From positions 2,728,001-2,792,000 of the forward strand of contig NZ_CP094468.1 of NCBI RefSeq assembly GCF_023347275.1: 64,000 nucleotides of DNA, read 5' to 3'. The DNA comes from Faecalibacterium sp. I3-3-89 (GTDB taxonomy: Bacteria > Bacillota > Clostridia > Oscillospirales > Ruminococcaceae). Below, piece after piece: positions 8,341-37,535 of this stretch (positions are counted from its first letter, which is position 1; the number at the start of each line of letters is the position of its first letter). A program made the position numbers and the translations under genes. The notes beneath the pieces are model-generated. The model saw only the letters and a program-made list of their open reading frames with translations, ran no database searches and was not told where the DNA came from.

Positions 8341-8368
8341 CGCATTTTCCTCATTGATCCCTGAGCGG

Positions 8369-11483: not shown

Positions 11484-11594
11484 AGATTTTCACAATCTGT
11501 CATTTCCGAGGCATATTTTGCAGAAGTTTCATTTTGGTTTCAAATTTTATTGTGCTTATCCACAAATACAGGCCCGGTTTTATTGTGCAAAACA

Positions 11595-11640
11595 GAAAAA
11601 ACCTCTCCGGCATTGCGAAGCAATGACGGAGAGGTTTTTC
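11595..11640 (-). terminator. Terminator of the two-component operon
   Basis: The stem AACCTCTCCG with its complement (11600-11609 and 11627-11636) is followed on the minus strand by a run of Ts, directly after the kinase stop codon at 11642. Confidence 0.88.
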
Positions 11641-11641
11641 T

Positions 11642-13629: not shown

Positions 13630-13666
13630 TGCCGCACCTCCTTTTTCCGCAATTTCTCTGGTTTTT

Positions 13667-13695
13667 ATTGTAACACGAAACTGGGCCGGTGGCAA
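13667..13695 (-). promoter_or_regulatory. Promoter of the LytTR two-component operon
   Basis: On the minus strand: TTGCCA (13690-13695), a 17-bp spacer, then TACAAT (13667-13672). Confidence 0.68.
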
Positions 13696-13743
13696 ATGGG
13701 AAGGCCCTTTTTCTGCCGCGTCCCCCAGTCCAACAGCTAAACA

Positions 13744-13792
13744 CAAAAGCAGCAGCCTCACTCTGCGTTCGGTGAGGCTGCTGCTTTGTTCT
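13744..13792 (-). terminator. Terminator of the S-layer homology gene
   Basis: A 16-bp stem (AAGCAGCAGCCTCAC and complement) is followed on the minus strand by TTTTGTGTTT, just past the stop at 13806. Confidence 0.85.
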
Positions 13793-13805
13793 TTCAGGGA
13801 AGATC

Positions 13806-22002: not shown

Positions 22003-22038
22003 ATGCCGTTCCAGTTGCTTTTGGAACGGCATTTCTCT
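22003..22038 (+). terminator. Terminator of the merR-like gene
   Basis: ATGCCGTTCC (22003-22012) pairs with GGAACGGCAT (22023-22032), then TTTCTCTT. Confidence 0.85.
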
Positions 22039-22173
22039 TAATCTTCTAACCCATGGCTCCCGGTTACGGTTTTCAAGTATTTCTCCGGGTCGCCGTTCAG
22101 AATCAAGTCCGCTTTGTTGATAAGGTTTTGAACACACAGCCGTCGGGAACAAGCCGGAATTGTCATTTCCGAA

Positions 22174-22224
22174 GAAAACGAAAAATCCGAACCCTTCTCC
22201 TATCGGAAAAAAGTTCGGATTTCG
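22174..22224 (-). terminator. Ancestral terminator of the tRNA-Lys transcript
   Basis: On the minus strand GAAATCCGAAC pairs with GTTCGGATTT, followed by TTCGTTTT. It stands just past the displaced 3' end of tRNA-Lys (22231), where the rRNA-tRNA transcript would have ended before the element inserted. The 130 bases between this and the merR terminator hold nothing else I can support. Confidence 0.65.
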
Positions 22225-22230
22225 TTGTTG

Positions 22231-22275
22231 TGGTGCACCTCCAGGGACTCGAACCCTGGGCCCACTGATTAAGAG
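22231..22275 (-). pseudogene. Left attachment site: displaced 3' half of tRNA-Lys
   Basis: These 45 bases are identical to 34340-34384 and correspond to the 3' part of tRNA-Lys including CCA. The 5' half and D-arm are missing, so this copy cannot make a tRNA. It marks the chromosomal junction of the element. Confidence 0.92.
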
Positions 22276-22416
22276 AGCAAGCCGCCGGTTCGTCTCAATT
22301 TCTGGAAGTTTCGAGTCATCGTTATTTTTAATCAAAGCAACGTGATTTTTCACCCGGTAATTTCTGCACCCTTTGTCGGATTTTGCAACGAAAAGCACCC
22401 TCTGCACGTTTTGAAA

Positions 22417-22445
22417 CCGTGCAAAATCCGTGCAGAAACCGTGCA
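22417..22445 (+). repeat. Integrase arm-type repeats, left end
   Basis: Three copies of CCGTGCA start at 22417, 22428 and 22439, exactly 11 bp apart, with an inverted TGCACG at 22403. The same triplet with the same spacing occurs at the right end (34244-34272). Arm sites of tyrosine integrases of the Tn916/lambda type have this look. Confidence 0.7.
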
Positions 22446-22585
22446 CTTACTCTCCGACAAATTAAAAATCACCCTATCCCCACCGACTTGACGGCATTGG
22501 TTTGGGTGGCCATTCTCTTATTTTTAGTACTTGCTGCATCACAAGCCGATTGGAAAGCATCTGACCTCATTCTCAGTATAACCCG

Positions 22586-22650
22586 TCGTTTTGTGTTAGA
22601 AAAAAGCAACACAGCACGATATGGTCTGTATGGCCTTGTAGTGGTATCCT
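22586..22650 (+). promoter_or_regulatory. Regulated promoter P1 of the RiPP cassette
   Basis: TCGTTTTGTGTTA (22586-22598) lies 31 bp (start to start) before CGATATG (22617-22623). A 21-bp gap then leads to the -10-like TATCCT (22645-22650). The same elements with the same spacings occur at P2 (23915-23979). There is no -35 consensus, as expected for an activator-dependent promoter. Confidence 0.6.
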
Positions 22651-22691
22651 TTTGCCAACAAGAAAACAACATAAAACGAAAGGAAAAACAA

Positions 22692-22907
22692 ATGATGAAA
22701 CGTATCTTTACCCTGATTACCTCTATTGTTCTGGCCACCAGTCTACTGGCTGTCCCCTGCTTTGCCGCTGAGCCTGAAGACTTGCCAGCACCGCAGCCTG
22801 GTGTGACCGAAACGGAACAACCTGACGGTTCTGATCAGCCTGAGAATCCGGACAGACCTTCTATCCAGCCATGTGATGCTATGCCGGGCGTTGGAGACAT
22901 GGGTTAA
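22692..22907 (+). CDS. Short secreted peptide, candidate pheromone precursor
   Basis: 71 aa. Residues 1-26 are a clear signal peptide (MMKRIF, hydrophobic core, likely cut after CFA). The exported part is about 45 residues, acidic and Pro-rich (PEDLPAPQPGVTETEQ), and ends CDAMPGVGDMG. ATG 22692 has AAAGGA 7 bases upstream. The gene is transcribed from P1, which shares its control elements with the precursor peptide promoter. It converges on the RNPP-type regulator gene, their stop codons overlapping. A small exported peptide beside such a regulator matches the PapR-PlcR layout, in which the C-terminal residues of the exported peptide are the signal. That role is inference; an immunity or accessory function is also possible. 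Confidence 0.72.
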   Translation: MMKRIFTLITSIVLATSLLAVPCFAAEPEDLPAPQPGVTETEQPDGSDQPENPDRPSIQPCDAMPGVGDMG

Positions 22908-23821
22908 CTCATAAAATCGATGTTCAAGTATTCTTTCGCTTCTTTTTTGACAACCTCTAACCCGATTTGATATCCAATGACTTTGCAGAGATAATACGAT
23001 TGGTAGTACAATTCTTTGCTGATTTCGTCATCGCCCATAAAATGTCGGCATTCCGCTTCAATTTCCAGACATCGGGGCAATACTTGGTAATGTCCATATT
23101 GAATACAGGCTTCTCGTCCTTCTTTAGCGAGTGCAGCTCCTTCCTCATAGCGACCGCACAAATCCAGTACCCGAGCATAATTATAAAGGACCAAAGGCAA
23201 CACCCCTATAGATGTTATGGTTTCCTTAAAATGCTTACGCACATACTTAAGCAGCTGATAGTAGATTTCAGCTGCTTTTTTATTTTGGCCAGCATCAGAG
23301 TAAGCAAGCCCAATCTGATTGATAATTGTGATTTCATCTCTTGTATAAAGGAAACTTTCTATACTCTCTAGGTCAAAGCGGGGCACAGTCAGCTGAATTG
23401 CCTGCATTAGCAGATCGATTTGTTCCAGCGGCGTGTAGCGTCCATCTAAGCGTCCCAGAAGTACCCTTGAACGCAGGGCAAATTGCTGCGCAATTTGATC
23501 ATCCGGATCTGCCAGCTTTTCAAATTGTGCAAGCTTCTCAAAGCCCTCCGGCACCTTTTCGGTCGCATTGCAGGCAACAATTTCTTTCTGAAGAGCTTCC
23601 ATCTCCAGTTCATTTTTACTCAGCAGAGCAAAATAGCGGTCATCCGGCAGGCCCAGACGCTGCAAAAGGGCATTGATCCGGTTGCGGCTGGGGGTCTGTT
23701 TCCCATTTTCCAGTCGGGAAAGAGTCATAGGCTCACAGATTCCATAGCAGAGCTGCTCCTGGGTCAAACCCAGATCCAGCCGCCGCTGCTTGACGTACTC
23801 GCCAAGAAAGACATTCTTCAT
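22904..23821 (-). CDS. RNPP/Rgg-like peptide-responsive transcriptional regulator
   Basis: 305 aa. An N-terminal XRE helix-turn-helix (residues 5-60, GEYVKQRRLDLGLTQEQLCYG and SRLENGKQTPS) is followed by about 240 residues of TPR-like helical repeats (IYYQLLKYVRKHF, ALAKEGREACIQYGHY). This is the architecture of Rgg, PlcR and PrgX regulators, which bind re-imported short peptides in the TPR groove. Start ATG 23821 has AGGAGG 8 bases upstream. It is divergent from the precursor peptide gene and convergent with the secreted peptide gene, and is the natural candidate to bind the shared elements in P1, P2 and P3. Codon use is AT-rich like the rest of the cassette. The ligand is unproven. Confidence 0.85.
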   Translation of the reverse strand: MKNVFLGEYVKQRRLDLGLTQEQLCYGICEPMTLSRLENGKQTPSRNRINALLQRLGLPDDRYFALLSKNELEMEALQKEIVACNATEKVPEGFEKLAQFEKLADPDDQIAQQFALRSRVLLGRLDGRYTPLEQIDLLMQAIQLTVPRFDLESIESFLYTRDEITIINQIGLAYSDAGQNKKAAEIYYQLLKYVRKHFKETITSIGVLPLVLYNYARVLDLCGRYEEGAALAKEGREACIQYGHYQVLPRCLEIEAECRHFMGDDEISKELYYQSYYLCKVIGYQIGLEVVKKEAKEYLNIDFMS

Positions 23822-23914
23822 CCCTAAACCCTCCTATAGAAGTAATATCTCTATTATTATAAAGGATGGCACAGCGGATTTCCAGTGAACGGTTCAACTT
23901 TTACTGAAAACTTA

Positions 23915-23979
23915 TCGTTTTGTGTTATTTTCAAGTAACTCGGCACGATATGTTGCCGGTCGGCAGGATGTGCTACAAT
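23915..23979 (+). promoter_or_regulatory. Regulated promoter P2 of the RiPP precursor
   Basis: TCGTTTTGTGTTA (23915-23927), then CGATATG (23946-23952; 31 bp start to start), then 21 bp, then TACAAT (23974-23979). The first two elements read roughly as ATCG...CGAT, that is, as inverted half-sites. The start codon follows at 24055. Confidence 0.7.
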
Positions 23980-24054
23980 ACAGTCACAGCAAGGGATACG
24001 AACAAACGAAAGCTCCCAAGCTGAATAAAACCAAAAAGAAAGGAGAAACAAATC

Positions 24055-24129
24055 ATGGAAGTCCTCGCTGAGAAGAAGCCCATTGAAGAACAGGTTGATT
24101 GCAATATCGACATTAATATCTTCTGCTAA
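24055..24129 (+). CDS. 24-residue RiPP precursor peptide with C-terminal NxxC
   Basis: A 24-codon gene with AAGGAG 9 bases before ATG 24055 and a stop at 24127-24129. The N-terminal 14 residues are charged and leader-like (MEVLAEKKPIEEQV). The last ten are D-C-N-I-D-I-N-I-F-C, with Cys at positions 16 and 24. The final NIFC fits the NxxC motif I recall for a class of streptococcal quorum-controlled radical-SAM peptides that carry a Cys-Asn thioether. It lies between a regulated promoter and a radical SAM gene, followed by an attenuator-like hairpin, the usual order for such clusters. Which residues are linked, and whether both Cys react, cannot be read from sequence. Confidence 0.82.
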   Translation: MEVLAEKKPIEEQVDCNIDINIFC

Positions 24130-24148
24130 CAGGGTTAATTACCACTTT

Positions 24149-24185
24149 AATAAGGGGTTCGGATTGTTCCGGGCCCCTTATTTCG
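24149..24185 (+). terminator. Leaky terminator/attenuator between precursor and maturase genes
   Basis: AATAAGGGG (24149-24157) pairs with CCCCTTATT (24174-24182), with an inner CGGA-TTGT-TCCG hairpin, followed by only a few Ts. It would let the short precursor mRNA accumulate above the maturase mRNA. Confidence 0.7.
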
Positions 24186-24234
24186 AACAATTATCCTGTA
24201 ATCAGGATTTTTATATAGATAAAGAGGAGCTAAT

Positions 24235-25485
24235 ATGTATACAGTACCCAGCTATGTGACCTATCGCACGGAAGAAGATGCTATTTATATTACATCAGAA
24301 TTGTATCGCAATACCGTCCGGCTGACCGATCATGGCCTGCAGAAGGAGTTCATCAATCTCACCCGTTGCGGCGGCTGTGCGGAACTGAATACGCCGTTGA
24401 CACGCTATCTGCATGAGCAAGAGCTTCTGGTAACCGAGGAAGAACTGGACCATGCGCTGCACCAGGTGAGATCTTTGCTGGATAATATCTTCATGGTAAC
24501 ATTGATGCCGACGGAAGGCTGCAATTTCCGCTGCCCATATTGCTATGAAGATCACCATGCGGTCAGTATGACTCGTGACACACTGGACCGAATTGAGGAG
24601 TATATAACTGCACAAGCGCCGCGCTATAAACAGGTCATACTTGCATGGTTTGGAGGTGAACCTACTCTTTGCAAAGACACTGTGCTGGAAGTGTCCAACA
24701 TTGTGCAAAATCTGCAGAAACAGTATGGCTTTCACTATGCTGCCAATATGACCACCAATGGTTATCTGCTGAATGACAAGCTATTTCGGCAGTTCTATCA
24801 GGCAGGGATCACCAGCTATCAAATTACAATTGATGGTTGGAATCACGACAAGACTCGGCCCCATGTATCCGGCAAAGGAACCCTGCAGACCATCATTAAC
24901 AATCTGGCCTCTCTTTCCAAGTTGCCGCCGGCAGAGTATTCCTTTCATATCACGCTGCGCCACAATATTCTGGCCGACGATGAGGACTACAGTTGGTATG
25001 ATTATCTGTACCGTCTGTTTGGGCATGACAAACGCTTCGCCGTACTTGTTCGTGCTGTTGGTGACTGGGGTGGTGAAGGCGTCCACAGTCTATCCATCCT
25101 TCATCAGGATACAAAAGATGTGTTGGTAGCAAAACATGTTGCATATCTGGATAAGATCGGGATGTCGTGTCATAACCACAGAAACGGAGCCCTTGCACAG
25201 GTGTGCTACGCTTCCTATCCACATAGCATGGTATTCCGGGCCAATGGAAAAATTGGCAAATGCACTGTGGCGCTTGACCACCCGCAAAACCAGTTAGGTT
25301 GGGTTGATCCCGAAAAAGGTATTGTGATCGACCCGGAGGTTAACTGCCGGTGGAGCTTTTCTGATCTGAAGCCCGAGTGTCGTAGCTGCCGGAATGTTTT
25401 GCGCTGCATGAATATGCAGTGCAAAAAGTCTGAAATTATTGATGGAAAGACAGTTTGCCTCTATAGAAAATCAGAATGTGTGTAA
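24235..25485 (+). CDS. Radical SAM/SPASM peptide maturase
   Basis: 416 aa. An N-terminal ~85-residue region resembles a PqqD-like peptide-recognition domain (AIYITSELYRNTVRL). The radical SAM core has the [4Fe-4S] motif CNFRCPYC (Cys 96, 100, 103) and the GGEPT motif. The C-terminal Cys-rich SPASM-type region (CRSCRNVLRCMNMQC) would hold auxiliary Fe-S clusters. The family installs carbon-sulfur or carbon-carbon crosslinks in small peptides. The 24-residue peptide encoded just upstream is the obvious substrate. ATG 24235 has GAGGAG 5 bases upstream. It is transcribed from P2 through an attenuator and is followed by an exporter gene with its own promoter P3. The crosslink type is inferred only from the NxxC motif of the precursor. 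Confidence 0.92.
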   Translation: MYTVPSYVTYRTEEDAIYITSELYRNTVRLTDHGLQKEFINLTRCGGCAELNTPLTRYLHEQELLVTEEELDHALHQVRSLLDNIFMVTLMPTEGCNFRCPYCYEDHHAVSMTRDTLDRIEEYITAQAPRYKQVILAWFGGEPTLCKDTVLEVSNIVQNLQKQYGFHYAANMTTNGYLLNDKLFRQFYQAGITSYQITIDGWNHDKTRPHVSGKGTLQTIINNLASLSKLPPAEYSFHITLRHNILADDEDYSWYDYLYRLFGHDKRFAVLVRAVGDWGGEGVHSLSILHQDTKDVLVAKHVAYLDKIGMSCHNHRNGALAQVCYASYPHSMVFRANGKIGKCTVALDHPQNQLGWVDPEKGIVIDPEVNCRWSFSDLKPECRSCRNVLRCMNMQCKKSEIIDGKTVCLYRKSECV

Positions 25486-25504
25486 TCAGTTAACTAACGC
25501 AAAA

Positions 25505-25538
25505 CGATATGTTTATTCCTCATCCTGTGTGCTACAAT
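25505..25538 (+). promoter_or_regulatory. Regulated promoter P3 of the RiPP exporter
   Basis: CGATATG (25505-25511), 21 bp, then TACAAT (25533-25538). This has the same spacing as P1 and P2, and GTGTGC or ATGTGC precedes the -10 in P3 and P2. The distal TCGTTTTGTG element is only weakly conserved here (around 25473-25485). Confidence 0.65.
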
Positions 25539-25614
25539 TTGAATCAGAAAGAGCAAAGCACACAATCCACTGTTCATAGAGACAGATGGAACGATCACAG
25601 AAGAGGTGGAAATC

Positions 25615-27228
25615 ATGAAGTATTATCTCAAAAAGTGCTGGCCCACTGTTACAGCGGCCTCCATCTGTATGGTTGTTGCCTATGGTTTGCAGGTCTGCAC
25701 CAGTCTGGTACAGATTCAGATCACCCAGGGACTGCTGGACGGTGATCTGCGGGCTTTCACCATTCGGATCATTCTTCTTCTGCTGACCTGGCTGGCCGTG
25801 GTCCTTTGCCTGATTGCAGAGACCTTCTTCCAGGGCCGGGCCGTGCGCCGGATGAACAACGCTCTGCGCCGGGATATGGCAGCGGGCCTGTTGCACAAGA
25901 CCCATCAGGAGTATCATAAGCAGGAGAGCGGCGAGTACCTCTCCCAGTTTACCAACGACGTGAACCAGATTGAGCAGATGGCCTGGACTCCGTTTTTCAC
26001 CATCATGGGTTCTGCGGCACAGGTGGTGTTCGGCATCGTTGCACTGGCATCCATTCATTGGCTGCTTCTGGTGATTTCTCTGGTCATCGCATTGGTTATG
26101 ATCTTCGTTCCTCGTCTGTTCAGCAAACGGTTGGGAACCGTTGGCACAGCCTGTGCCGCCAGCCAGGCTGACAGCGTCAGTAAAATCAAGGATCTGCTGG
26201 CAGGTTACGATGTGCTTCGCTTCTTTGGCAAGGATGAACGGTTTACCAGCGGAGTCGATGCAGCCAGCGACAGCATGGAGCAGGCCAAGTACAAACTGAC
26301 CATCAACAAGGACGGCATCGGCTGTGGTCTGGCCTATGTCAGCGCCGTCTGCCAAGTGGCCGTTGTCATCCTGCTGGGTGTCCTGATCCTCAATGATATG
26401 ATTCCTCTGGCCACCTTTATGGGCACCGGTACCATCTGCGCCGGCGTGTATAATGGACTGAACCAGGTGTCCAAACTTGCAGTGTCCTTCTCGGCCAGCA
26501 AGCCCTATTTCGATAAGATTACCATCCATGCCGGCGAGGCGCAGCTTCCTGATTTCGGTCTGCCTACCCTGCAGGAAGGCATTACGGTCAAGGATGTCTC
26601 TTTCGGCTACGATGAAAAGAAGCCGATCCTGGTCCACATGAACGCGGAATTCAAGAAAGGCGGCAAATACGCCCTCACCGGTCCCTCCGGCTGCGGCAAG
26701 AGCACCCTGCTGAAGATTCTTCTGGGCTGGCTGCCCGGCTACCAGGGCAAGGTCCTTTATGACGAGAGAGACGTGCGGGATTACACGCCCGAGCAGCTCC
26801 AGCAGAAAATGAGCTACATCGAACAGAATGTGTTCCTGTTCAATACCACCATCCGTGAGAACATTACCCTGGGTGAGCACTTTACCGACGAGCAGATGGA
26901 AAAGGCACTGCGTGACAGCGCCCTGGCAGGCGACCTTGCCAATATGCCCAAGGGTCTGGATACGCCGGTGGGCGAGGAAGGCAACGCCCTCTCGGGCGGC
27001 CAGAAGCAGCGCGTGGCCATCGCCCGTGCTCTGATCCATAACCGCAGCATCCTGCTGGTGGATGAGGGCACCAGCGCCCTGGACCAGAAGAACGCCGACA
27101 TCGTGGAGAAGAGCCTGCTGTCCAACCCTGACCTGACCCTGATCCTGATTAGCCATCACCTGAGCGACGAACGTAAAGCCCAGTTCGATCATGTGTACGA
27201 GTTGACGCCCGCATCTTCTATTGTCTGA
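25615..27228 (+). CDS. ABC exporter of the RiPP cassette
   Basis: 537-aa half-transporter. The membrane domain is about residues 1-310. The ATPase domain has Walker A GPSGCGKST (about residue 356), signature LSGGQKQR, Walker B ILLVDEGTSALD and a His in ISHH. There is no N-terminal peptidase domain, so leader removal, if any, needs another protease. ATG 25615 follows an AGAGG-type ribosome binding site by about 10 bases. Promoter P3 ties it to the precursor and secreted peptide genes, so its likely job is export of the modified peptide, perhaps with self-protection. Its base composition is nearer to the host than that of the radical SAM gene. Confidence 0.88.
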   Translation: MKYYLKKCWPTVTAASICMVVAYGLQVCTSLVQIQITQGLLDGDLRAFTIRIILLLLTWLAVVLCLIAETFFQGRAVRRMNNALRRDMAAGLLHKTHQEYHKQESGEYLSQFTNDVNQIEQMAWTPFFTIMGSAAQVVFGIVALASIHWLLLVISLVIALVMIFVPRLFSKRLGTVGTACAASQADSVSKIKDLLAGYDVLRFFGKDERFTSGVDAASDSMEQAKYKLTINKDGIGCGLAYVSAVCQVAVVILLGVLILNDMIPLATFMGTGTICAGVYNGLNQVSKLAVSFSASKPYFDKITIHAGEAQLPDFGLPTLQEGITVKDVSFGYDEKKPILVHMNAEFKKGGKYALTGPSGCGKSTLLKILLGWLPGYQGKVLYDERDVRDYTPEQLQQKMSYIEQNVFLFNTTIRENITLGEHFTDEQMEKALRDSALAGDLANMPKGLDTPVGEEGNALSGGQKQRVAIARALIHNRSILLVDEGTSALDQKNADIVEKSLLSNPDLTLILISHHLSDERKAQFDHVYELTPASSIV

Positions 27229-27518
27229 AACCGGGAAGCAACGCAATAGCCGGAAGAATCCAAAGAAACCGTGCCGGGGTTTCGTGACACACGACTTTGT
27301 TTGCAAAGTCTAGTGTGTTACACCTTGGTTCCGGCTGATGCGGAAAAGGGACTGCGAGCAGCTCCGGCAAGCACCTATTCTGCGGCAGAAGGATGCGCGG
27401 ATGGGGATGGCAGCTAATGGTTTCTGCCCACCCAGCGCAGGCTTGCAGAGGAACCAATGGTGTACGTTCTCCCGTCCTGCCGCAGCAGCGTTTTCCCTAT
27501 AAGGCGCAGGGCAAATGA
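27229..27518. other. Intergenic region between RiPP cassette and mobility module
   Basis: About 290 bases without a supportable gene. It holds two inverted repeats: GAAACC with GGTTTC at 27266-27284, and CACAC-ACTTTG with CAAAGT-GTGTG at 27287-27317. The second could end transcription from the exporter, although no T-tract follows. Confidence 0.5.
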
Positions 27519-28334
27519 TCAGCGTCTGTGCTTGCCCCGCATCCCTGCCTTTGTGCGGTGCTTCAGCATGGAGGATTTGTTGAACACCCGCAGCAGGGTC
27601 ATCTGTTCTTCTTTTGTCAGCTTGGAATAGTCGATGCCGATCTGTCCCATCAGGACATTCATCTTCTTTTCCAACGGAGAACCTTCAAACTTCTGTGCAT
27701 TTTCAAGCTGCTTCCTCGCTTGCTCGACCGCTGCGCCGTCCGACGTGGTCTTATCGGTCCCATGTGCCGCTTTGATCTGCTTCAGGATCGCCGCCAGCTC
27801 ATCATAGAGGATCTGCCCGAAATATTCGTCCTCGTTGATCTGCGCCGCCTTCAGCGTCCGCATGGTCAGGTCCTCTGCATCGGCATGGTATCGCTTTTCC
27901 AGTTCCTGCCGGGTGGCTTCCACCATGGCATTCATATCCCGGATGCGGTCACTGACCAGACCGTCCACACAGATCTCAAGGTCGGTCATCCACCGGGAAA
28001 AATCGGGATGTTCCAAAAGTTCACACAGCAGCCGATGATTGAAATTCCCATTCCTTAATACGTCCACTGCGCCATCGCTCAGATGCAAGTCCGAAAGGAC
28101 TGCATCTGGGCGTTTTTTGTTTTCCGTCACGCCCAACAGGTAGTCCGTGGTCACGCCATAGAACTCAGCCAGCGTTGTCACCGCATAAATGCTGAGGTCG
28201 GTCACATCGTCACTCTCGTATTTCGACAATGCCGATTTGGACAGACCCGTCTGCTCTGCCAGCGTTTCCAGCTTCAGACTCCGCTCCACACGCAGGTCTT
28301 TGAGCCGTTCTCCCAGTGTCAGCTTGATGTTCAT
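27519..28334 (-). CDS. XRE-family regulator of the mobile element
   Basis: 271 aa. Residues 1-65 are a helix-turn-helix of the XRE type (LGERLKDLRVERSLKLETLAEQTGLSKSALSKYESDD-like). The rest is helical and ends in a basic tail (KAGMRGKHRR). Proteins of this layout occur at the control end of many Clostridial integrative elements and probably repress or time replication and mobilization genes. Start ATG 28334 has GGAGG 7 bases upstream; the frame is open to 28370 without a better site. It has its own promoter (28361-28389) and is divergent from the replication genes. Confidence 0.8.
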   Translation of the reverse strand: MNIKLTLGERLKDLRVERSLKLETLAEQTGLSKSALSKYESDDVTDLSIYAVTTLAEFYGVTTDYLLGVTENKKRPDAVLSDLHLSDGAVDVLRNGNFNHRLLCELLEHPDFSRWMTDLEICVDGLVSDRIRDMNAMVEATRQELEKRYHADAEDLTMRTLKAAQINEDEYFGQILYDELAAILKQIKAAHGTDKTTSDGAAVEQARKQLENAQKFEGSPLEKKMNVLMGQIGIDYSKLTKEEQMTLLRVFNKSSMLKHRTKAGMRGKHRR

Positions 28335-28360
28335 GGTCGCACCTCCGATGTTTTTTGCAC

Positions 28361-28389
28361 AGTATACCACTTCCGGCGGTTCCTGTCCA
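28361..28389 (-). promoter_or_regulatory. Promoter of the element's XRE regulator
   Basis: On the minus strand: TGGACA (28384-28389), 17 bp, then TATACT (28361-28366). Confidence 0.65.
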
Positions 28390-28780
28390 TAAGCGTGGAA
28401 TTTTGCAGTTTCTGCACCTGTTTTCCGACATTATGGATATACGGCACAGCAGCCATGGAGGTGCTATCCTATAGACAGAAGGAAAACATATCACTCCCCA
28501 GCAGCGAACATATTAAGGGCTTCCCGTAAAAGCCCTCCCGAATCATATAACCGAACCTTGACAACAGAATGACCGTCCGAACTGCCCAGACCGCCAAGAC
28601 CTCCCATCGGGGGAGCGAGCGCCCTGCATAGGGCCGACACAGAGTCCAAAAAGATTTCCTGTCGGGAGGCAGCAAGGGAGACCGGCTTCACCGAAGTTCC
28701 CATTTGGGGGACCCCGGTGACTTTGAACGTGGCAGGGATCAAAACGATCCGTGCCAAAACCTTTGACCAAAGGAGAAATT
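28390..28780. other. Long non-coding region upstream of the replication genes
   Basis: About 390 bases. Short open frames here have no ribosome binding sites or coding character. It is rich in short GC palindromes (CCCATCGGGGG, GGGACCCC, GATCAAAACGATC) around 28605-28755. A TTGACA at 28558 has no matching -10. It may be the leader or control region of the replication operon; I see nothing more specific. Confidence 0.4.
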
Positions 28781-29383
28781 TTGAGTTTATATCAAAAGAT
28801 CAAGTCCGCCATCACCGTTCGGCAGGTGGGAGAGATGTACGGCATGAAGCCCGACCGCCATGGCATGGTGTGCTGTCCGTTCCATTCTGACAGCGACCCC
28901 AGCATGAAGCTGAACGACACCTATTATTACTGTTTTGGCTGTGGGGCCAACGGAGATGCCATCGACCTCACCGCCAAACTGTTCGACCTGAACCCCCGGC
29001 AAGCCGCCGAGAAGCTCGCAAGTGACTTCGGGCTTGACCCGGACAAGCCGCCCGCCAATGCCATCGCTCTGCCGCCGCCCAAGCGTGGCCTGACAGACGA
29101 GCAGTGGGCAGACATCGCCTACTGCCTGCGGGTGCTGACCGATTATCTCGACCTGCTGCACGACTGGCGAGAGCGCTACAAGCCCACCACCCCGGAGGAG
29201 CCGCTGGACGAGCGGTTCGTGGAAGCTCTCCACATGACCGAGACCGTCGAGCACCTGACGGACTGCGTTGCATTTGGGACACCCCAGCAGAAAGCCGCTG
29301 CCGCCGCACAGCTGCTGTCCGGGTCGTACCTGCTGATGCTGGAGGAGCGCACCGACCGCCTTGCTCTGGCAAAGTGCGCCTGA
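28781..29383 (+). CDS. CHC2 zinc-finger protein, DnaG-type primase fragment
   Basis: 200 aa. Residues 25-65 carry a DnaG-like zinc ribbon (CCPFHSDSDPSMKL, then CFGCGANGDAID), which binds DNA in primases. The catalytic TOPRIM part is absent; the rest is a helical tail. Start TTG 28781 is chosen because AAAGGAG lies 5 bases upstream; the frame is open further to 28751 without a ribosome binding site. Together with the P4-type protein at 29457 it forms the replication module of the element: the zinc ribbon and the helicase/primase are split over two genes. Confidence 0.83.
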   Translation: MSLYQKIKSAITVRQVGEMYGMKPDRHGMVCCPFHSDSDPSMKLNDTYYYCFGCGANGDAIDLTAKLFDLNPRQAAEKLASDFGLDPDKPPANAIALPPPKRGLTDEQWADIAYCLRVLTDYLDLLHDWRERYKPTTPEEPLDERFVEALHMTETVEHLTDCVAFGTPQQKAAAAAQLLSGSYLLMLEERTDRLALAKCA

Positions 29384-29456
29384 CGATTGATTCACCTGAA
29401 GTGGTGGGTCTCACGGTGAGACCTACCACTTCACTTTCCTAAAGGAGAACCACCAC

Positions 29457-30773
29457 ATGAAGAAAAACATTTCCCGCAACCCTTTATGGCCGGACTGGTA
29501 CAACGGTAAGAAGATCGATGAAGTCCAGTTTGGCCGTGCCTTTCTGGAACAATGGCCGCTGAAATGCGTCAACGGTACGCTGTACACGCTGGACGGCCCG
29601 GTAGAGGACGAAAGCGAGATCAAGCAGCGCATCTTGGAGAACATCGAGGAATATGTCACCTCCAGCTTGTCCAAAAAAGTCACCAACATTCTGGAGACCA
29701 TCAAGCTGCTGGCTTTTTCCGACCCGTTCCCCATCGAGCAGGACTGCATCCACCTCCAGAACGGCGTGTACCATCTGCCGGACGGCTCTTTTCAGGAGAG
29801 CCGCCTGTTCTGCCAGAACCGCCTGCCTGTGAGGTATGACCCCAAAGCCGCCACCCCTGACCGCTGGCTGACCTTTCTGCACGAGCTGCTGGACGATGCC
29901 GACATCCCCACCTTGCAGGAATATCTGGGCTACTGCCTGATCCCCAGCACCAAGGGGCAGAAGATGATGCTCATTGTCGGCAAGGGAGGCGAAGGCAAGT
30001 CCCGCATCGGGCTGGTGCTGAAACGGCTCATGGGGGATGCCGCCAGCAACGGCAGCGTCCAGAAAGTGGAGAACAACCGCTTTGCCCGTGCCGATCTGGA
30101 ACGCCGCCTGCTGATGATCGACGATGATATGGACATGAACGCCCTGCCCAAGACGAATTATATTAAGACCATCGTGACCGCCGAAGCCAAGCTGGACTTG
30201 GAGCGCAAAGGTGTCCAGAGCTACCAGCGGGACATTTATGCCCGGTTCCTCTGCTTCGGCAACGGTGCGCTGACCTCACTGTACGACCATTCGGACGGTT
30301 TCTTTCGCCGCCAGCTCATCCTGACCACCAAGAACAAGCCTGCTGACCGCACAGATGACCCCTTCCTTGTGGAGAAGATGTGCGCCGAGTTGGAAGGCAT
30401 CCTGCTCTGGTGTCTGGAAGGGCTGCACCGGCTGGTGCAGAACGATTTCCGCTTCACGGTCAGCAAACGAGCCGCGGCCAACGTGGACACCATCAAGCGC
30501 AGCAGCAACAATGTCATCGACTTCATGGAGTCCGAGGGCTATTTCCGCTTCAAGGCGGACTACTCCATCAGCTCCAAGGAGTTCTACGACATTTATAAGC
30601 AGTGGTGCGAGGACAACGCCTACCACAGCGTATCTGCCATCCGTTTCAGCGCGGAACTGCGACAGAACGACCGCCGCTATAACCTTGAAGCCACCAACAA
30701 CATCTACCTGCCCGGTGGCCGCAGGGTGCGGGGTTTTGTAGGCATCGAGCCGCTTGTCCACCCCTGCCCGTAA
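29457..30773 (+). CDS. P4-type primase/helicase (superfamily 3)
   Basis: 438 aa. The C-terminal two-thirds is a superfamily 3 helicase of the phage/plasmid primase P4 family: Walker A GKGGEGKSRIG (about residue 180) and Walker B LLMIDDDMD (about 220), followed by the usual C-terminal domain. The N-terminal ~120 residues are poorly conserved and I see no full primase site. Such proteins bind iterons, open the origin and drive replication of excised elements. Immediately downstream is a GTAC-repeat region (30802-30950), a good candidate for its binding site. It lies 73 bases after the CHC2 gene in the same direction. Confidence 0.88.
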   Translation: MKKNISRNPLWPDWYNGKKIDEVQFGRAFLEQWPLKCVNGTLYTLDGPVEDESEIKQRILENIEEYVTSSLSKKVTNILETIKLLAFSDPFPIEQDCIHLQNGVYHLPDGSFQESRLFCQNRLPVRYDPKAATPDRWLTFLHELLDDADIPTLQEYLGYCLIPSTKGQKMMLIVGKGGEGKSRIGLVLKRLMGDAASNGSVQKVENNRFARADLERRLLMIDDDMDMNALPKTNYIKTIVTAEAKLDLERKGVQSYQRDIYARFLCFGNGALTSLYDHSDGFFRRQLILTTKNKPADRTDDPFLVEKMCAELEGILLWCLEGLHRLVQNDFRFTVSKRAAANVDTIKRSSNNVIDFMESEGYFRFKADYSISSKEFYDIYKQWCEDNAYHSVSAIRFSAELRQNDRRYNLEATNNIYLPGGRRVRGFVGIEPLVHPCP

Positions 30774-30801
30774 AAAGTGTATTTTTTCACGGAAGAAGTT
30801 C

Positions 30802-30950
30802 GTACAACCTGTACGGTCTGTACTTGTACGCATCTGTACGGCGAGTTGAAGCGTTTTAAAACGTGTTATCGTTTATATTTCGCATTTCCGTACGTCGTAC
30901 GAACCGTACAGGTTATTTGAAGTCCGTACGCAATTTTTTCAGATGCGTAC
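30802..30950. repeat. GTAC iterons, putative replication origin of the element
   Basis: Ten GTAC tetramers, most as GTACGG, CGTAC or GTACAGG, lie in two groups of five (30802-30839 and 30890-30950). They flank an AT-rich core that holds the perfect palindrome CGTTTTAAAACG (30852-30863). AACCTGTACGGT on the left is the inverse of ACCGTACAGGTT on the right. Position directly after the primase/helicase gene suggests an origin. Confidence 0.62.
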
Positions 30951-30954
30951 GGAG

Positions 30955-30985
30955 CAATCAAGTTCGCATTGTGCGAACTTGATTG
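30955..30985. repeat. Perfect 14-bp hairpin beside the putative origin
   Basis: CAATCAAGTTCGCA (30955-30968) pairs with its exact complement (30972-30985) over a 3-base loop. There is no T-tract, so it may be part of the origin or oriT rather than a terminator. Confidence 0.6.
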
Positions 30986-31031
30986 TAGCTCTCCCGCAGG
31001 AGGCGTTCCCCCTCGGAGAGTCCTCGAAGAG

Positions 31032-31089
31032 CCCACTACACTTTGCAGCCCATAGGGATGAAAGTGTTATAGTGGGTTATTACACTTCC
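31032..31089 (+). other. Putative MobV-type origin of transfer (oriT)
   Basis: CCCACTACACTTT (31032-31044) and AAAGTGTTATAGTGGG (31061-31076) form an imperfect inverted repeat, followed by TTATTACACTT. The arrangement matches the pMV158 oriT that MobV relaxases cut, in which TAGTGTG is followed by TTA. By that analogy the nick would fall between 31076 and 31077. It lies about 60 bases before the mobV gene, as expected. Confidence 0.7.
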
Positions 31090-31149
31090 GAAGAAGTGCA
31101 TCTTCGTTCCCCGTCACCTTTCGATGAACCTTGAAAGGAGGGATGCCCT

Positions 31150-32415
31150 TTGGCAAGAAACGATGGCGTTGACCGCACCAGTGTCCGGAATCTCGCCGTT
31201 TCGGACAAGGCCGTTGGCAACACCCAGCAGCACAATGAGCGTGAAAAGGACAGCTATCGGAACCCCGACATTATCCCCCAGCGCACTGCATGGAACGTCC
31301 ACTTCAAAAAGCCAACTGCCAGCTACACCGACCTATTCGCCCAACTGGAAGCCGCCGGAACCATCTCCACGCGCGGCTTGAAGCCGGATGCTATCCACTA
31401 CTGTGAACTTGTCTTTGATGTCAACTCTGCCTACTTTGACAATCACGGCGGCTATGAGTTCGCCAAGCAGTTCTATGAGGATGCCTACAAAGCAGCCGTT
31501 CAAATCGTGGGCGGTGAGCAGTATATTCTCTCGGCTGTCATGCACGCCGATGAAATCAACCGCGCCATGACCGAAGCACTAGGCCGCGAAGTTTACCACT
31601 ACCACCTCCATGTGGTCTATGTACCTGTGGTGGAAAAGCAGATCCTGTGGTCGAAACGCTGCAAGGACAAGGCACTGGTCGGCACCGTCAAGGAGACCGT
31701 CATGCAGGTCAGCCGGAGCAAGAAGTGGGCATCCAAGCCCCTGCTGGACGATGCTGGAGAGCCCGTCCTGCAAAAGAACGGCAAACCAGTCCTGAAGAAG
31801 TCGTACAGCATCCTGCAAGACGATTTCTTCAACTATATGCACAATGCCGGGTACACCGATGTAGAGCGCGGCGAGCGCGGCAGCACCGAAGAACACCTGA
31901 CCGTCACCCAGTTCAAAGTCCAGCGGGAGCAGGAGCGTCTGGACAGCCTGACTGCACAAGCCGACGAACAAGCACAGTCGCTTGCTAAAACCAGTCAGAC
32001 CCTCTCCAAAAAGGAGAAGGAACTTGCCGCTGTGCAGAAAAAGGCCACACTCACGAAAGAAGCCCTCATTCATGCGCGTGATCTGGATTATATCGGCAAG
32101 CGCACCTTCCTCGGCAACTACTCGCTGACCGAAGAAGAATTTTCCAAACTGAAAAAACAGGCTGACCACGGCTATATGATGGACGTAGAGAACCGCCGCC
32201 TGAAAGAAGAACTTTCCACCGCCAAGAAGGAAGCCATTCATTGGAGCAACAAGTACCACGACCTGTGGTACGATGTAAAGCCCTATCTGGATGCGCTCCA
32301 CCGTGCTCCTGAACTGGTGCGCGGTTTTCTGGAAAAGATTCTTGCTCCCAAGCAGGAGCGCACCATGAATGTGCCACAGCGAAACCGCAAGCGTGGGCAG
32401 GATGTAGAACTTTAA
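31150..32415 (+). CDS. MobV-family relaxase (plasmid recombination protein)
   Basis: 421 aa. The N-terminal ~210 residues form the MobV/Pre catalytic domain, with the acidic/His motif MHADEINR (about residues 130-137) and the metal-binding HYHLHVVYV (about 150-158). A long coiled coil (about 250-330) and a C-terminal helical part follow. It would nick oriT (31032-31089) and carry one strand into a recipient using another element's mating apparatus. Start TTG 31150 has AGGAGG 8 bases upstream; an ATG at 31143 is out of frame. No coupling protein or mating-pore genes are present, so the element is mobilizable rather than self-transmissible. Confidence 0.9.
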   Translation: MARNDGVDRTSVRNLAVSDKAVGNTQQHNEREKDSYRNPDIIPQRTAWNVHFKKPTASYTDLFAQLEAAGTISTRGLKPDAIHYCELVFDVNSAYFDNHGGYEFAKQFYEDAYKAAVQIVGGEQYILSAVMHADEINRAMTEALGREVYHYHLHVVYVPVVEKQILWSKRCKDKALVGTVKETVMQVSRSKKWASKPLLDDAGEPVLQKNGKPVLKKSYSILQDDFFNYMHNAGYTDVERGERGSTEEHLTVTQFKVQREQERLDSLTAQADEQAQSLAKTSQTLSKKEKELAAVQKKATLTKEALIHARDLDYIGKRTFLGNYSLTEEEFSKLKKQADHGYMMDVENRRLKEELSTAKKEAIHWSNKYHDLWYDVKPYLDALHRAPELVRGFLEKILAPKQERTMNVPQRNRKRGQDVEL

Positions 32416-32457
32416 GCTGAATTTTTAGATGATATGACAATATAAGGAGCAATGCTT

Positions 32458-32772
32458 ATGGATTTTGACCGTAATTCTATGACCGTCCCTGTGCAATCTT
32501 CCGATTATACGAATAAGTTCTTGCAAAAGGACTCGAATCTCACTACAATGGAGGTGGTCACTCAAACCAATGCCGTCAAGTCTCCGACTGACAGCCCAGC
32601 AACCACGAAGCTGGTGTACACGGTGGAAGAGATCGCACGAATGCTGGCCATCAGCCTGCGCTCTGCTTACAACCTGTGCAACAGCACCACCGAATTCCGT
32701 GTCCTGCGGGTAGGCGGAAGCATCCGTGTACCGAAAGACAGTTTCGATGCGTGGCTCTACCGGGCAGCTTGA
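32458..32772 (+). CDS. Excisionase-like helix-turn-helix protein
   Basis: 104 aa. About 50 poorly structured N-terminal residues are followed by an excisionase-type winged helix (VYTVEEIARMLAISLRSAYN, RVGGSIRVPKDSFDAWL). It lies 16 bases before the integrase gene. ATG 32458 is preferred over ATG 32452 because AAGGAG is 8 rather than 2 bases away. It probably binds an attachment-site arm and steers the integrase toward excision. Its N-terminal extension is longer than in typical Xis proteins. Confidence 0.82.
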   Translation: MDFDRNSMTVPVQSSDYTNKFLQKDSNLTTMEVVTQTNAVKSPTDSPATTKLVYTVEEIARMLAISLRSAYNLCNSTTEFRVLRVGGSIRVPKDSFDAWLYRAA

Positions 32773-32788
32773 TAAGGAGGCAAACAGT

Positions 32789-34177
32789 ATGGCATATATT
32801 ACGAAGCGCGGCAACTCTTACAGCGTCCGATACACTTATGAAGATGAGCACGGCAAGAGCTGCGACAAATGGGAGAGTTTTCCCACAAAAGAGGAGGCAA
32901 CAAACCGAAAAAAGCAAATCGAGCATGAACTGGCGGCTGGTACTTTCCTGATTCCGTCCTCTGTGACGGTAGCAGAGTTCCTCATGGATTGGCTGCCCAA
33001 GCAGTGCAGCAAACACAAGTGGGCACCCAAAACCTACGAATCCAACCTTTCCACCATTCAGAACCTTATTATCCCCTATATCGGCAGCATGGAGATGCAG
33101 AAACTCAAGCCCTACCACATGGAAAACCTCTATACGACCCTGAGCAAAACGCCCTGCGGTTCGTATATCGAGGGAAAGAAGCAAGAACTGACCGAAAAGC
33201 AGAAACAGCGGTTTCTTTCCGGCACGACTATCCATGAGGTGCACCGGCTGCTGGGAACAGCGTTCCAGTATGCCGTGGAGTGGGGAATCCTGATTAAGAG
33301 TCCTGTTCCCGTGGACAGCCCCAAGAAGTCCACGCAGGAGCGCTCCATCTGGACGGTAGAGGAAATGCGGGCGGCTCTGGACAGCATGGATGACCCTATC
33401 CTGCATCTGGCAGTCCACCTCACACTGGTGGGCGCACTGCGAGAGGGCGAGATCGTAGGTCTGACCCCAGAGGATATTGACTTTGACGCTGCGGACGGCA
33501 TCGGAACATTCCGTATCAACAAATCCATGCAGCGAGTGCGTAAAGAAGCCCTGAATCAGGTAGACGACGGCTGCATCATCAAGGTATTCCCGGACAAGCT
33601 GGAACGCAGCACCACTTCTCTCATCCTGAAAAGCACCAAAACGGCGTCCTCCTGCCGTACCATCTTCATGACCTCTGCTCTGAAAGAGGAACTGAAGAAG
33701 TGGCTGAATCAGCTGGCGGCAGACGAGATGAAAGATCCGGCACGCTACCATGACAGCGGAATGCTGTTCCGTCTGCCCAACGGTCTGGCTGTGGAGCCTG
33801 TGCTGATTCGCAAAAAGTTCCTCAAATGGCAGGATGCACACCCGGAGTTCCCTCGTATTGTGTTCCACGGTCTGCGGCATTCCAGTGCGACCTATCAGCT
33901 GATGATCTCCGGCGGCGATGTGAAGGCCGTTCAAGGCACCACAGGACACGCTACGGCAGATATGCTGGTGAACACCTATGCCCATATCCAGCAGTCCTCT
34001 CGTGTAGAACTGGGCAGGAAGTTCGAGGAAGGGTTCTATGCTAAACAGGAAAGCCCCAGCCCGCAGGCTGTACCCGCCGCAGGCGAACCCACCATCTCCA
34101 TGACGGCTCTCTTGGAATTGCTGAAGAATGCAGACCCCGAAGTAAAGGCGCAGCTCCGTCTGGCACTGCTGACCTGA
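32789..34177 (+). CDS. int: Tyrosine integrase of the element
   Basis: 462 aa. The N-terminal arm-binding domain (residues 1-60, ITKRGNSYSVRYTYEDEHGK) is followed by a SAM-like core-binding domain (about 65-165) and the catalytic domain. Catalytic residues visible are Arg in ALREGE (about 217), His and Arg in HGLRHSS (about 360), His in TGHAT and Tyr in NTYAH (about 397). ATG 32789 has AAGGAGG 8 bases upstream. The gene ends 160 bases from the attachment site in tRNA-Lys, which it presumably targets. Repeats CCGTGCA near both ends are the likely targets of its arm-binding domain. Confidence 0.94.
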   Translation: MAYITKRGNSYSVRYTYEDEHGKSCDKWESFPTKEEATNRKKQIEHELAAGTFLIPSSVTVAEFLMDWLPKQCSKHKWAPKTYESNLSTIQNLIIPYIGSMEMQKLKPYHMENLYTTLSKTPCGSYIEGKKQELTEKQKQRFLSGTTIHEVHRLLGTAFQYAVEWGILIKSPVPVDSPKKSTQERSIWTVEEMRAALDSMDDPILHLAVHLTLVGALREGEIVGLTPEDIDFDAADGIGTFRINKSMQRVRKEALNQVDDGCIIKVFPDKLERSTTSLILKSTKTASSCRTIFMTSALKEELKKWLNQLAADEMKDPARYHDSGMLFRLPNGLAVEPVLIRKKFLKWQDAHPEFPRIVFHGLRHSSATYQLMISGGDVKAVQGTTGHATADMLVNTYAHIQQSSRVELGRKFEEGFYAKQESPSPQAVPAAGEPTISMTALLELLKNADPEVKAQLRLALLT

Positions 34178-34243
34178 TGCAAAATTTACCACGCATTTCA
34201 AAGCAATTCCAGCCTATGCAGAGGATTCCTACGAAAAAGCCGA

Positions 34244-34272
34244 CCGTGCAAAAATCGTGCATTGACCGTGCA
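34244..34272 (+). repeat. Integrase arm-type repeats, right end
   Basis: CCGTGCA at 34244, a one-mismatch copy TCGTGCA at 34255 and CCGTGCA at 34266 are 11 bp apart. They match the left-end triplet at 22417-22445 in sequence, phase and orientation. Confidence 0.7.
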
Positions 34273-34305
34273 GACCCCGATTTTTCGGGGTTACATAACA
34301 AAAAA

Positions 34306-34333
34306 GAACGCCAAATCTTACGATTTGACGTTC
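34306..34333 (-). terminator. Element-supplied terminator for tRNA-Lys
   Basis: On the minus strand GAACGTCAAATC pairs with GATTTGGCGTTC (one mismatch), followed by TTTTTTG, 7 bases past the tRNA 3' end. It replaces the chromosomal terminator now displaced to 22174-22224. A small CCCCGA-TTTT-TCGGGG hairpin at 34276-34291 lies beside it. Confidence 0.78.
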
Positions 34334-34339
34334 AAAATT

Positions 34340-34384
34340 TGGTGCACCTCCAGGGACTCGAACCCTGGGCCCACTGATTAAGAG
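34340..34384. repeat. Right attachment site (45-bp direct repeat)
   Basis: Identical to 22231-22275; covers tRNA-Lys from the anticodon loop to CCA. Insertion in the tRNA 3' half leaves the gene intact at this end. Confidence 0.92.
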
Positions 34385-34415
34385 TCAGTTGCTCTACCAA
34401 CTGAGCTAGAGGTGC
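34340..34415 (-). tRNA. tRNA-Lys(CTT)
   Basis: 76 nt with encoded CCA. The acceptor stem GCACCTC/GAGGTGC, D-arm, anticodon stem ACTGA/TCAGT around loop CTCTTAA (anticodon CTT) and T-arm GGTTCGAGTCC are all intact. It is last in the rRNA operon and is the insertion site of the mobile element, whose end rebuilds its 3' half. Confidence 0.95.
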
Positions 34416-34455
34416 ATATTGTCAAGATGCGGTTTCTTCATCCTGACAACTATGA

Positions 34456-34571
34456 GTCGGCGACTACCTATTTTCACAAGCCGTTTCCAGCTAACTATCT
34501 TGGGCACGAGTGAGCTTAACTGCTGTGTTCGGAATGGGAACAGGTGGAACCTCACCGTCATCGTCACCGAC
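34456..34571 (-). rRNA. rrf: 5S ribosomal RNA
   Basis: About 116 nt. Terminal stem GTCGGTG/CGCCGAC and the conserved CCCATTCCGAACAC core are present. It is separated from tRNA-Lys by about 40 bases. Ends are estimated from the terminal helix. Confidence 0.92.
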
Positions 34572-34696
34572 CATATGACTAGCTAAGTATATCATTTCTG
34601 ACTTACTTTGTCTAGTATTTCTAGAAGGACGTGCCTTCAAAACTGAATAATCACTGCTTACATTTTTTCGTTGACTCTAAGAGTCTCAAGCGAATT

Positions 34697-37535
<2,839 letters not shown>

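Follow-up and report, generated by a model that had tools for sequence, protein, structure and literature searches.

A mobilizable element of Faecalibacterium carrying a radical-SAM peptide cassette with a PlcR-like regulator and a putative pheromone

Several described systems resemble parts of a locus in Faecalibacterium sp. I3-3-89, where a stretch of 64,000 nucleotides (the window; contig NZ_CP094468.1, positions 2,728,001 to 2,792,000) contains an integrative mobilizable element (IME) with a cassette for a ribosomally synthesized and post-translationally modified peptide (RiPP). In the PlcR-PapR system of the Bacillus cereus group, a secreted propeptide provides a C-terminal signal and the operator is palindromic. 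The SCIFF ranthipeptide system has an enzyme with RRE and SPASM domains, which forms a non-alpha thioether. Control of a radical-SAM RiPP by an RRNPP receptor is a principle known from streptococci. The accessible text of PMC13361665 divides the Rgg-linked radical-SAM RiPPs of streptococci into sixteen subfamilies, NxxC included, and in NxxcA, according to the part of PMC8326336 available, Cys23 is joined to Asn20.

The Faecalibacterium cassette shares with the streptococcal Rgg/SHP systems (NxxcA/NxxcB) an RRNPP-type receptor with an adjacent pheromone gene, a radical-SAM enzyme, a short precursor and the NxxC motif. In contrast to these systems, its receptor is PlcR-like and not Rgg, its propeptide is a secreted protein of 41-90 residues and not a short hydrophobic peptide, a common leader is followed by a variable core, the hosts are Clostridia and the carrier is an IME. 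With PlcR-PapR it has in common the predicted receptor fold, the secreted propeptide and a palindromic operator; it differs in governing a local RiPP cassette, in a receptor with 18% identity in the fold match, in the operator itself and in convergent genes with overlapping stop codons. The closest solved fold of the enzyme belongs to the SCIFF system, whose precursors have six Cys in 45 residues, whereas here the precursor has 24 residues and 2 Cys and the system is accessory, not core. Other tRNA-integrating IMEs with Mob_Pre relaxases likewise have an integrase and a relaxase without a secretion system of their own, and differ in cargo.

A description of this cassette was not found in searches of the open-licence PMC literature, which beyond the papers named here covered listings. 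Bernard et al. (2023; PMC10075063) report 196 biosynthetic clusters next to an RRNPP system, of which six are plasmidic and 125 lie in Streptococcaceae; the available text, supplements aside, places none of the clusters in Oscillospiraceae, Ruminococcaceae or Lachnospiraceae, and the word "integrative" is absent from the main text. The main text of a study of RRNPPA evolution (PMC9765709) does not contain the words Clostridia, Lachnospir-, Oscillospir-, Faecalibacterium, RiPP or radical SAM. Genome mining has found ranthipeptide clusters in the majority of Faecalibacterium strains, and one paper equates them with SCIFF (accessible parts of PMC11169845, PMC12802319 and PMC9846645), and integrative and conjugative elements and IMEs are numerous in F. 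prausnitzii, as stated in the available part of PMC6295017. New, as far as could be checked, are the type of receptor, the family of precursors, the fixed operator, the host bacteria and the carriage by an IME.

As anatomy, an IME with a RiPP cassette is close to certain. Beyond the anatomy, we consider it fairly probable that this tRNA-Lys(CTT) IME carries a self-contained autoinducing pheromone circuit that drives an NxxC-type ranthipeptide. The initial annotation had described a complete RiPP cassette with its own peptide-responsive regulator, linked to Rgg; the full cassette and the type of regulator stand, but the Rgg label gives way to a PlcR-like fold. The cassette consists of the following features, numbered from the first letter of the window.

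22587-22623, plus strand: palindromic operator of the propeptide promoter; 26 of 29 positions agree with the dyad (shuffle maximum 19); -10-like TATCCT at 22645-22650
22695-22907, plus strand: secreted propeptide of 70-71 residues, with a signal peptide judged by hydrophobicity; its homologues are convergent to the regulator in 12 of 14 regulator-bearing relatives
22904-23821, minus strand: PlcR-like HTH-TPR receptor/regulator; PF13560 and PF01381 above cut-off
23916-23952, plus strand: operator of the precursor/radical-SAM promoter; 25 of 29 (shuffle maximum 19); -10-like TACAAT at 23974-23979
24055-24129, plus strand: 24-residue precursor MEVLAEKKPIEEQVDCNIDINIFC, with a ribosome-binding site, a leader motif common to the relatives and NxxC
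24149-24182, plus strand: strong hairpin between the precursor and enzyme genes; z -6.2 for 24126-24200
24235-25485, plus strand: radical-SAM peptide maturase with a SPASM-type Cys pattern and a probable N-terminal RRE-like domain; PF04055, fold of 5why/5wgg
25474-25511, plus strand: operator of the exporter promoter, degenerate in its left half; 23 of 29 (shuffle maximum 18); -10-like TACAAT at 25533-25538
25606-27228, plus strand: ABC exporter with membrane and ATPase domains; PF00664, PF00005

Relatives of the enzyme in named genomes numbered 191, of which the best 80 were kept and the fifteen with E <= 5e-83 (loci L039-L053) were examined; the next relative scores E 2e-58. Judged from sequence, the secreted propeptide, convergent HTH-TPR receptor, precursor, radical-SAM enzyme and ABC exporter are a cassette family in Clostridia. 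The ABC gene lies downstream of the enzyme at all fifteen loci, and the regulator is present at 14, the contig of L047 ending before the place. A convergent secreted small protein adjoins the regulator in 12 of the 14 regulator-bearing relatives, and 13/15 loci have, ahead of the enzyme, a similarly designed open reading frame (ORF) for 23-37 residues, the precursor having been lost in L040. The regulators of L051-L053 are longer and match weakly (73-86 bits). A scan with Pfam gave no match to a peptidase domain in the ABC exporter.

The leader supports the assignment of the precursor. Among 138 small ORFs preceded by a ribosome-binding site at thirteen loci (L041-L053), 11 start with M[EKQR][VI][ILV], and every one of these is the ORF preceding the enzyme. 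Because the motif is restricted to this position, a chance origin of the 24-residue ORF was rejected; a TTG-started ORF at 24083-24259 was dropped as a candidate, since the relatives point to the ORF at 24055. A fourteenth precursor was found in another congeneric genome (locus L130 of G020; G000 is the host genome and other G labels are other genomes). Between precursor and enzyme, 13 loci were tested for a hairpin, with z of -2.2 to -5.7 in 12 of them and -1.4 in L048. This hairpin may be an attenuator or an RNA-stability element.

The cores of the precursors contain Asn and Cys and differ greatly from locus to locus, which would suit weapons and their targets. The same circuit might nevertheless make a modified peptide that is a social signal or regulatory molecule and not an antibacterial. 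No dedicated immunity gene is seen in the cassette, and one genome (G013) keeps the regulator and exporter after loss of precursor and enzyme, which would suit such a role; yet the role of signal is already filled by the separate propeptide, and together with the variable cores this makes the alternative unlikely, if still a serious one. A link of SCIFF ranthipeptides to quorum sensing in solventogenic clostridia, taken from a reference cited in the accessible parts of PMC8326336 and PMC11169845, also speaks for it.

The nature of the cross-link is suggested by the spacing of residues in the cores. N-x-x-C occurs in 11 of the 13 precursors, the window's own included, against a mean of 3.7 after shuffling (P 0.0002), and in 11/14 when L130 is added. 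The same test gave no enrichment of N-C, NxC or NxxxC in the 13 precursors and a weaker one of N....C (P 0.006); CxxC, CxxD and CxxxD, tried as other motifs, were not enriched. The predicted model of the enzyme (predicted local distance difference test score, pLDDT, 82; alignment of 17 sequences) fits 5why/5wgg best, over about 400 columns, followed by SuiB, SkfB and TigE. Structures 5why and 5wgg are what we take to be CteB, a thioether-forming maturase. As the model aligns with them, the enzyme probably has an RRE-like domain at its N terminus and a SPASM domain. No named equivalog of NCBIfam passed its cut-off. Membership in the top-scoring RiPP maturase model, TIGR04463, was rejected (134.7 of 525 bits), and so was membership in SCIFF (TIGR03974, 59.3 of 425 bits; 2 Cys in 24 residues). 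It is conceivable, though we think it rather improbable, that the enzyme forms another cross-link, such as an alpha-thioether (sactionine) or a C-C or C-O bond, and that NxxC is a by-product of cores rich in Asn and Cys. The presence of SuiB and SkfB among the fold neighbours and the three precursors of 14 without NxxC point in that direction, but the enrichment of just one of the Asn-to-Cys spacings from 0 to 3 residues and the Clo7bot, PapB and SCIFF maturases among the NCBIfam neighbours argue against it.

The regulator combines a helix-turn-helix with a TPR pheromone-binding fold and stands next to a secreted propeptide, as do RRNPP receptors. The best PDB match of its AlphaFold2 model (pLDDT 91) is the PlcR-PapR-DNA complex 3u3w (E 1.1e-8, TM-score 0.60), followed by ComR and Rgg2. 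An Rgg identity was rejected: no Rgg model of Pfam or NCBIfam matches at E <= 1e-3, and Rgg2 matches the fold less well than PlcR does. A secreted propeptide was found beside 16 of the 25 regulators inspected, and at 12 of these 16 the stop codons of the two genes overlap within 4 nt; some of the 16 copies (window, L040, L129) are near-identical to each other. In the Faecalibacterium copies of the cassette, the propeptides agree in the signal-peptide half and differ in the tail (DAMPGVGDMG in the window, DAMPGDGNLA and DAFPGGGEAL elsewhere), and a G016 propeptide that stands without a cassette has DACPGRGDIA at its end. The putative pheromone of the window would thus lie within the C-terminal tail DAMPGVGDMG. 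A comparison in 100-nt blocks with F. prausnitzii APC923/61-1 gave 96-100% identity for the DNA of precursor and enzyme, 76% for the block of the propeptide tail, and 33% and 69% for the blocks between regulator and precursor; the 34% in the last block of this window/L039 comparison (25631-25700) is artefactual, the segments having unequal ends. Divergence of the tail and of the regulator-to-precursor blocks beside a conserved precursor and enzyme looks like an exchange of pherotypes.

The promoters of the cassette have an operator in common. Its dyad, derived from the window and the relatives, is a 37-bp palindrome, CGTTTTGTGTTA-N8-TAACACAAAACGATATG, and scores 20-28 of 29 at 17 of 22 promoters (shuffle maxima 18-20), the only exporter promoter scored being that of the window. 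Of these 17 promoters, 16 have a gap of 8 nt and one, the window's exporter promoter, has 9 nt. A TANNNT hexamer, which is outside the score, follows exactly 21 nt on at 16/17, the exception being the propeptide promoter of L041. When precursor and propeptide promoters were compared without guidance, the same pairing emerged in the window, L039, L042, L044 and L050, with no equal window elsewhere in the locus. The comparison was equivocal in L041 (6 of 126 other windows as good or better) and L048 (2/160), and without signal in L045 (82/86 windows as good) and L046 (27/160); we suspect second copies of the regulator behind the unclear cases. Loci L051 and L052 were compared as well but not counted, since their two promoter regions overlap. 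The pattern TCGTTTTGTGTTA-N5-10-AAC has three matches in the 2.8-Mb host genome, two here and one in a decayed second cassette, and its reverse has none.

No consensus sigma-70 site was found at the positions of the operator-bearing promoters. As the operator occupies the place of the -35 element, we read the regulator as an activator, on the arrangement of these sites. The alternative that it is an ordinary repressor or a sensor of something other than a pheromone, with the secreted protein serving as immunity factor, chaperone or otherwise, could draw on a score below the curated cut-off for RNPP_C (PF18768; 24.1 of 26.5 bits) and on the two of 14 regulator-bearing relatives in which no propeptide was seen. 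We regard it as distinctly improbable, as the best fold match is to a pheromone receptor on DNA, the convergent propeptide is conserved while its tails vary, and an operator with fixed spacing at -35 suits an activator.

The process that we infer runs from activation, through the identity and import of the pheromone, to the cross-link, the activity of the product and transfer by the relaxase. The propeptide would be exported by means of its signal peptide, and its C-terminal tail would be freed as a short pheromone. The pheromone would then be re-imported by an oligopeptide permease of the host and bound by the PlcR-like receptor. By binding the 37-bp palindrome that replaces the -35 element, the receptor would activate three promoters: that of the pheromone gene, causing positive feedback, that of the precursor and the radical-SAM enzyme, and that of the exporter. 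The hairpin 3' of the precursor gene might tip the mRNA towards precursor over enzyme. The RRE-like domain of the enzyme would grip a leader of roughly 12 residues, allowing the enzyme to link Cys to the Asn three residues upstream (NxxC, a non-alpha thioether) in the small core. The product would be exported by the ABC protein and is most likely a weapon against close relatives or a signal to them. The element would be transferred by its relaxase with the help of a type IV secretion system (T4SS) encoded elsewhere.

Several observations weigh against a pheromone-driven ranthipeptide. The matches of the regulator to PlcR and of the enzyme to 5why/5wgg both have moderate TM-scores (about 0.6) and a large root-mean-square deviation. 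The filter used found no propeptide at L043 and L049, no precursor ORF was found ahead of the enzyme in L053, NxxC is missing from three of the 14 precursors, and no leader peptidase is seen in the cassette. Among the 22 promoters scored, there is no dyad operator at L045 (2 promoters), L046 (2) and L047 (1), and the propeptide promoters of L041 and L044 and the precursor promoter of L044 score 20 against shuffle maxima of 19. The dyad score is partly circular, because the consensus came from the same promoters; the 21-nt spacing is not. Finally, most congeneric copies of the cassette are decayed in precursor and/or enzyme.

The remainder of the element forms the vehicle of the cassette.

22231-22275, minus strand: attL, a 45-bp copy of the tRNA-Lys 3' end; perfect direct repeat, at the empty-site junction
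22276-22511, no strand: common left arm with GTGCA-type short repeats; 94-95% identity over 22166-22511 in two IMEs with other cargo
27519-28370, minus strand: XRE-family regulator of the element; PF12844, PF01381
28751-29383, plus strand: CHC2 zinc-finger primase-like protein; PF01807
29457-30773, plus strand: P4-family primase/helicase; TIGR01613, 129.1 bits (cut-off 108.7)
30785-31110, no strand: iteron and inverted-repeat region (inverted repeat I2), candidate oriV and oriT
31150-32415, plus strand: Mob_Pre (MobV-like) relaxase; PF01076, 107.2 bits (cut-off 25.5)
32452-32772, plus strand: excisionase-like HTH_17 protein; PF12728
32789-34177, plus strand: tyrosine integrase; PF00589, PF14659
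34340-34384, minus strand: attR, within tRNA-Lys(CTT) 34340-34415; direct repeat and tRNA call

A repeat search of the window recovered the perfect 45-bp direct repeat of tRNA-Lys that had been proposed to bound some 12 kb (22231-22275 and 34340-34384, spacing 12,109 bp). The right-hand copy coincides with the 3' end of tRNA-Lys(CTT), a minus-strand gene that adjoins a 5S/23S/16S rRNA operon. The element measures 12.15 kb with both repeats, and the circle after excision would measure 12,109 bp. Chance is not a credible origin of the repeat, and a second IME in the host genome is bounded by an identical one. The GTGCA-type repeats, at 22405-22456 in the left arm and 34243-34272 at the right end, are probable arm sites of the integrase and excisionase. 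Strong structure is predicted at 30785-30930 (z -3.3), a candidate oriT. A 28-nt stretch of the xis gene (32555-32582) is repeated in inverted form (93%) at 22485-22512, the end of the common left arm, where the likeness between IMEs of this family stops. Short REP-like palindromes at 22037-22112 and 22166-22222, one of which abuts the tRNA-Lys att sites, recur at many places across Faecalibacterium genomes; a query with the flank matched 29 of 31 genomes, and the matches listed were mostly these stretches.

For each of the integrase, excisionase-like protein, relaxase, P4-family primase and CHC2 primase-like protein, one or more models of Pfam or NCBIfam score above their curated cut-offs. 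The annotated gene set of integrase, excisionase-like protein, P4-type replication and MobV relaxase is present, except that the relaxase falls below the MobV equivalog cut-off of NCBIfam (47.6 of 100 bits). The element has att direct repeats at a tRNA gene, a site-specific integrase and a relaxase, and no T4SS part was found among the ten element proteins scanned with Pfam and NCBIfam. A helper T4SS is plausible because the host genome matches the T4SS coupling-protein family at three places.

Empty sites and further copies in relatives had been named as checks on the element, and both were found. The two flanks were joined in a script and the predicted junction was compared with loci from congeneric genomes. 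Six loci from six genomes (G005, G022, G026, G021, G008 and G019) span a junction with a single att copy, with identities from 97.7% over 177 nt to 85% over 158 nt. These sites hold the 65-bp flank beside att without the MerR gene further left, and none of the six is the empty form of exactly this locus with its MerR flank. At sites where no more than 0.5 kb separates that flank from an att copy, G003 and G006 carry another integrase-bearing element, G015 carries another IME and then this element, and G007 has DNA without a recognized integrase. Cassette-bearing copies of the element are 93-98% (G007, F. prausnitzii APC923/61-1), 98-99% (G015, F. hattorii APC922/41-1) and 98% (G025) identical where aligned. 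The G015 copy sits behind the right end of another IME, and the att of the G007 copy is preceded by 63 nt that match the right end (94%), which makes a tandem likely there as well. A region of the host genome (G000:C1:46000-81000, L125-L127) has three related integrases in one orientation near tRNA-Arg and is probably an array of integrative elements, including the decayed second cassette.

The second host IME lies at the other tRNA-Lys(CTT) (G000:C1:651952-660335), has other cargo and lacks the cassette. Two stretches of the window, 22166-22511 (94%) and 30699-34700 (91%), align with it, and between them no match exceeds 60 nt; its integrase is 98% identical. A third IME, in G010 and again with other cargo, has identical match limits, 22511 and 30699, at 95% and 93%. 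From these shared limits the element is a fixed frame (left arm; origin, relaxase, xis and int) around an exchangeable middle. It is quite unlikely that the element is a non-mobile relic, found in several genomes because of old insertions or recombination. The relaxase and the excisionase (27.3 of 28.8 bits for TIGR01764) do score below their NCBIfam cut-offs, and tandem arrays could be static, but the frames of integrase, relaxase and xis are unbroken, a nearly identical integrase occupies another site in the company of different cargo, and the neighbours of the same element differ between G007 and G015.

Proteins related to the enzyme are many (1350 at E <= 1e-3), and close relatives are few. 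At E <= 1e-100 they occur in five of 31 congeneric genomes (G000, G007, G015, G025 and G020). At E <= 1e-60, 391 genomes of the class yielded 4 with a match and 396 of the family yielded 5, or 1/391 and 4/396 after removal of distant enzymes without a cassette (L230-L233); a search of the family around G366 gave 0 of 14. The 11 plasmid records matching at E <= 1e-20 are all below 60% identity (ten listed at 29-33%), so that there is no close plasmid copy, and the best of five matching viral contigs has E 2e-40 at 31%.

As cargo of a mobile element, the cassette stands confirmed in Faecalibacterium but is not confined to IMEs. Around the cassettes of nine other Clostridia, 20 neighbour proteins were scanned, among which there was no tyrosine integrase or relaxase, and the integrase and relaxase of the window had no phmmer match in L041-L053; carriage by an IME is thus seen in Faecalibacterium only. 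The neighbours are mostly ordinary chromosomal genes, several without a family: mnmE and jag (L049), aconitase (L046), fakA-like (L047), tex (L050), transporters (L041), kinases (L042), and a serine recombinase, the only one, with RloB (L044, at 7398-14459). In L049 (5972-13744), the cassette lies between mnmE and jag/khpB and has two tandem regulators.

Copies of the element occur in G007, G015 and G025, but among congeneric genomes the complete cassette is present only in the window and G007, which speaks against a simple spread of a working system. The G015 copy lacks promoter, precursor and enzyme start, and in G025 a 2.9-kb replacement covers the same region. In the second copies of G000 and G015 the enzyme is broken and the ABC gene mostly gone. 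The regulator, present in seven of the 31 genomes, remains with a tail remnant in G002 and with the propeptide in G016; its frame is unbroken in the decayed copies, apart from one broken fragment in G013. At L223 of G013 (4481-7293), the exporter beside the regulator keeps an operator half and a promoter. In G020 a diverged cassette (L130, 8600-11942; 45% enzyme) has no recognizable regulator; some 0.3 kb separates it from left-arm sequence (85%) and a perfect 45-bp copy of att. The pattern of decay agrees with a costly product and with listeners or immune cheaters among the reduced copies, but simple decay explains it equally well.

Possibly, and we would put this slightly below an even chance, these cassettes represent an undescribed class of pheromone-gated mini-ranthipeptides across gut Clostridia, in which a PlcR-like receptor, a rapidly changing pheromone tail, a fixed -35-replacing operator and a rapidly changing core of 10-20 residues evolve as a unit. 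In Faecalibacterium the class would ride tRNA-Lys IMEs, and copies that have lost the maker and retain receptor and/or exporter would be listeners or immune cheaters. If the circuit operates as proposed, a defined pheromone, a fragment of the 10-residue tail, would switch on a defined modified peptide of 24 residues, and both could be tested by synthesis. Because the operator is recognizable by sequence, the same switch could wake silent clusters in uncultured relatives. The communication system would then be owned by a mobile element and not by the host lineage.

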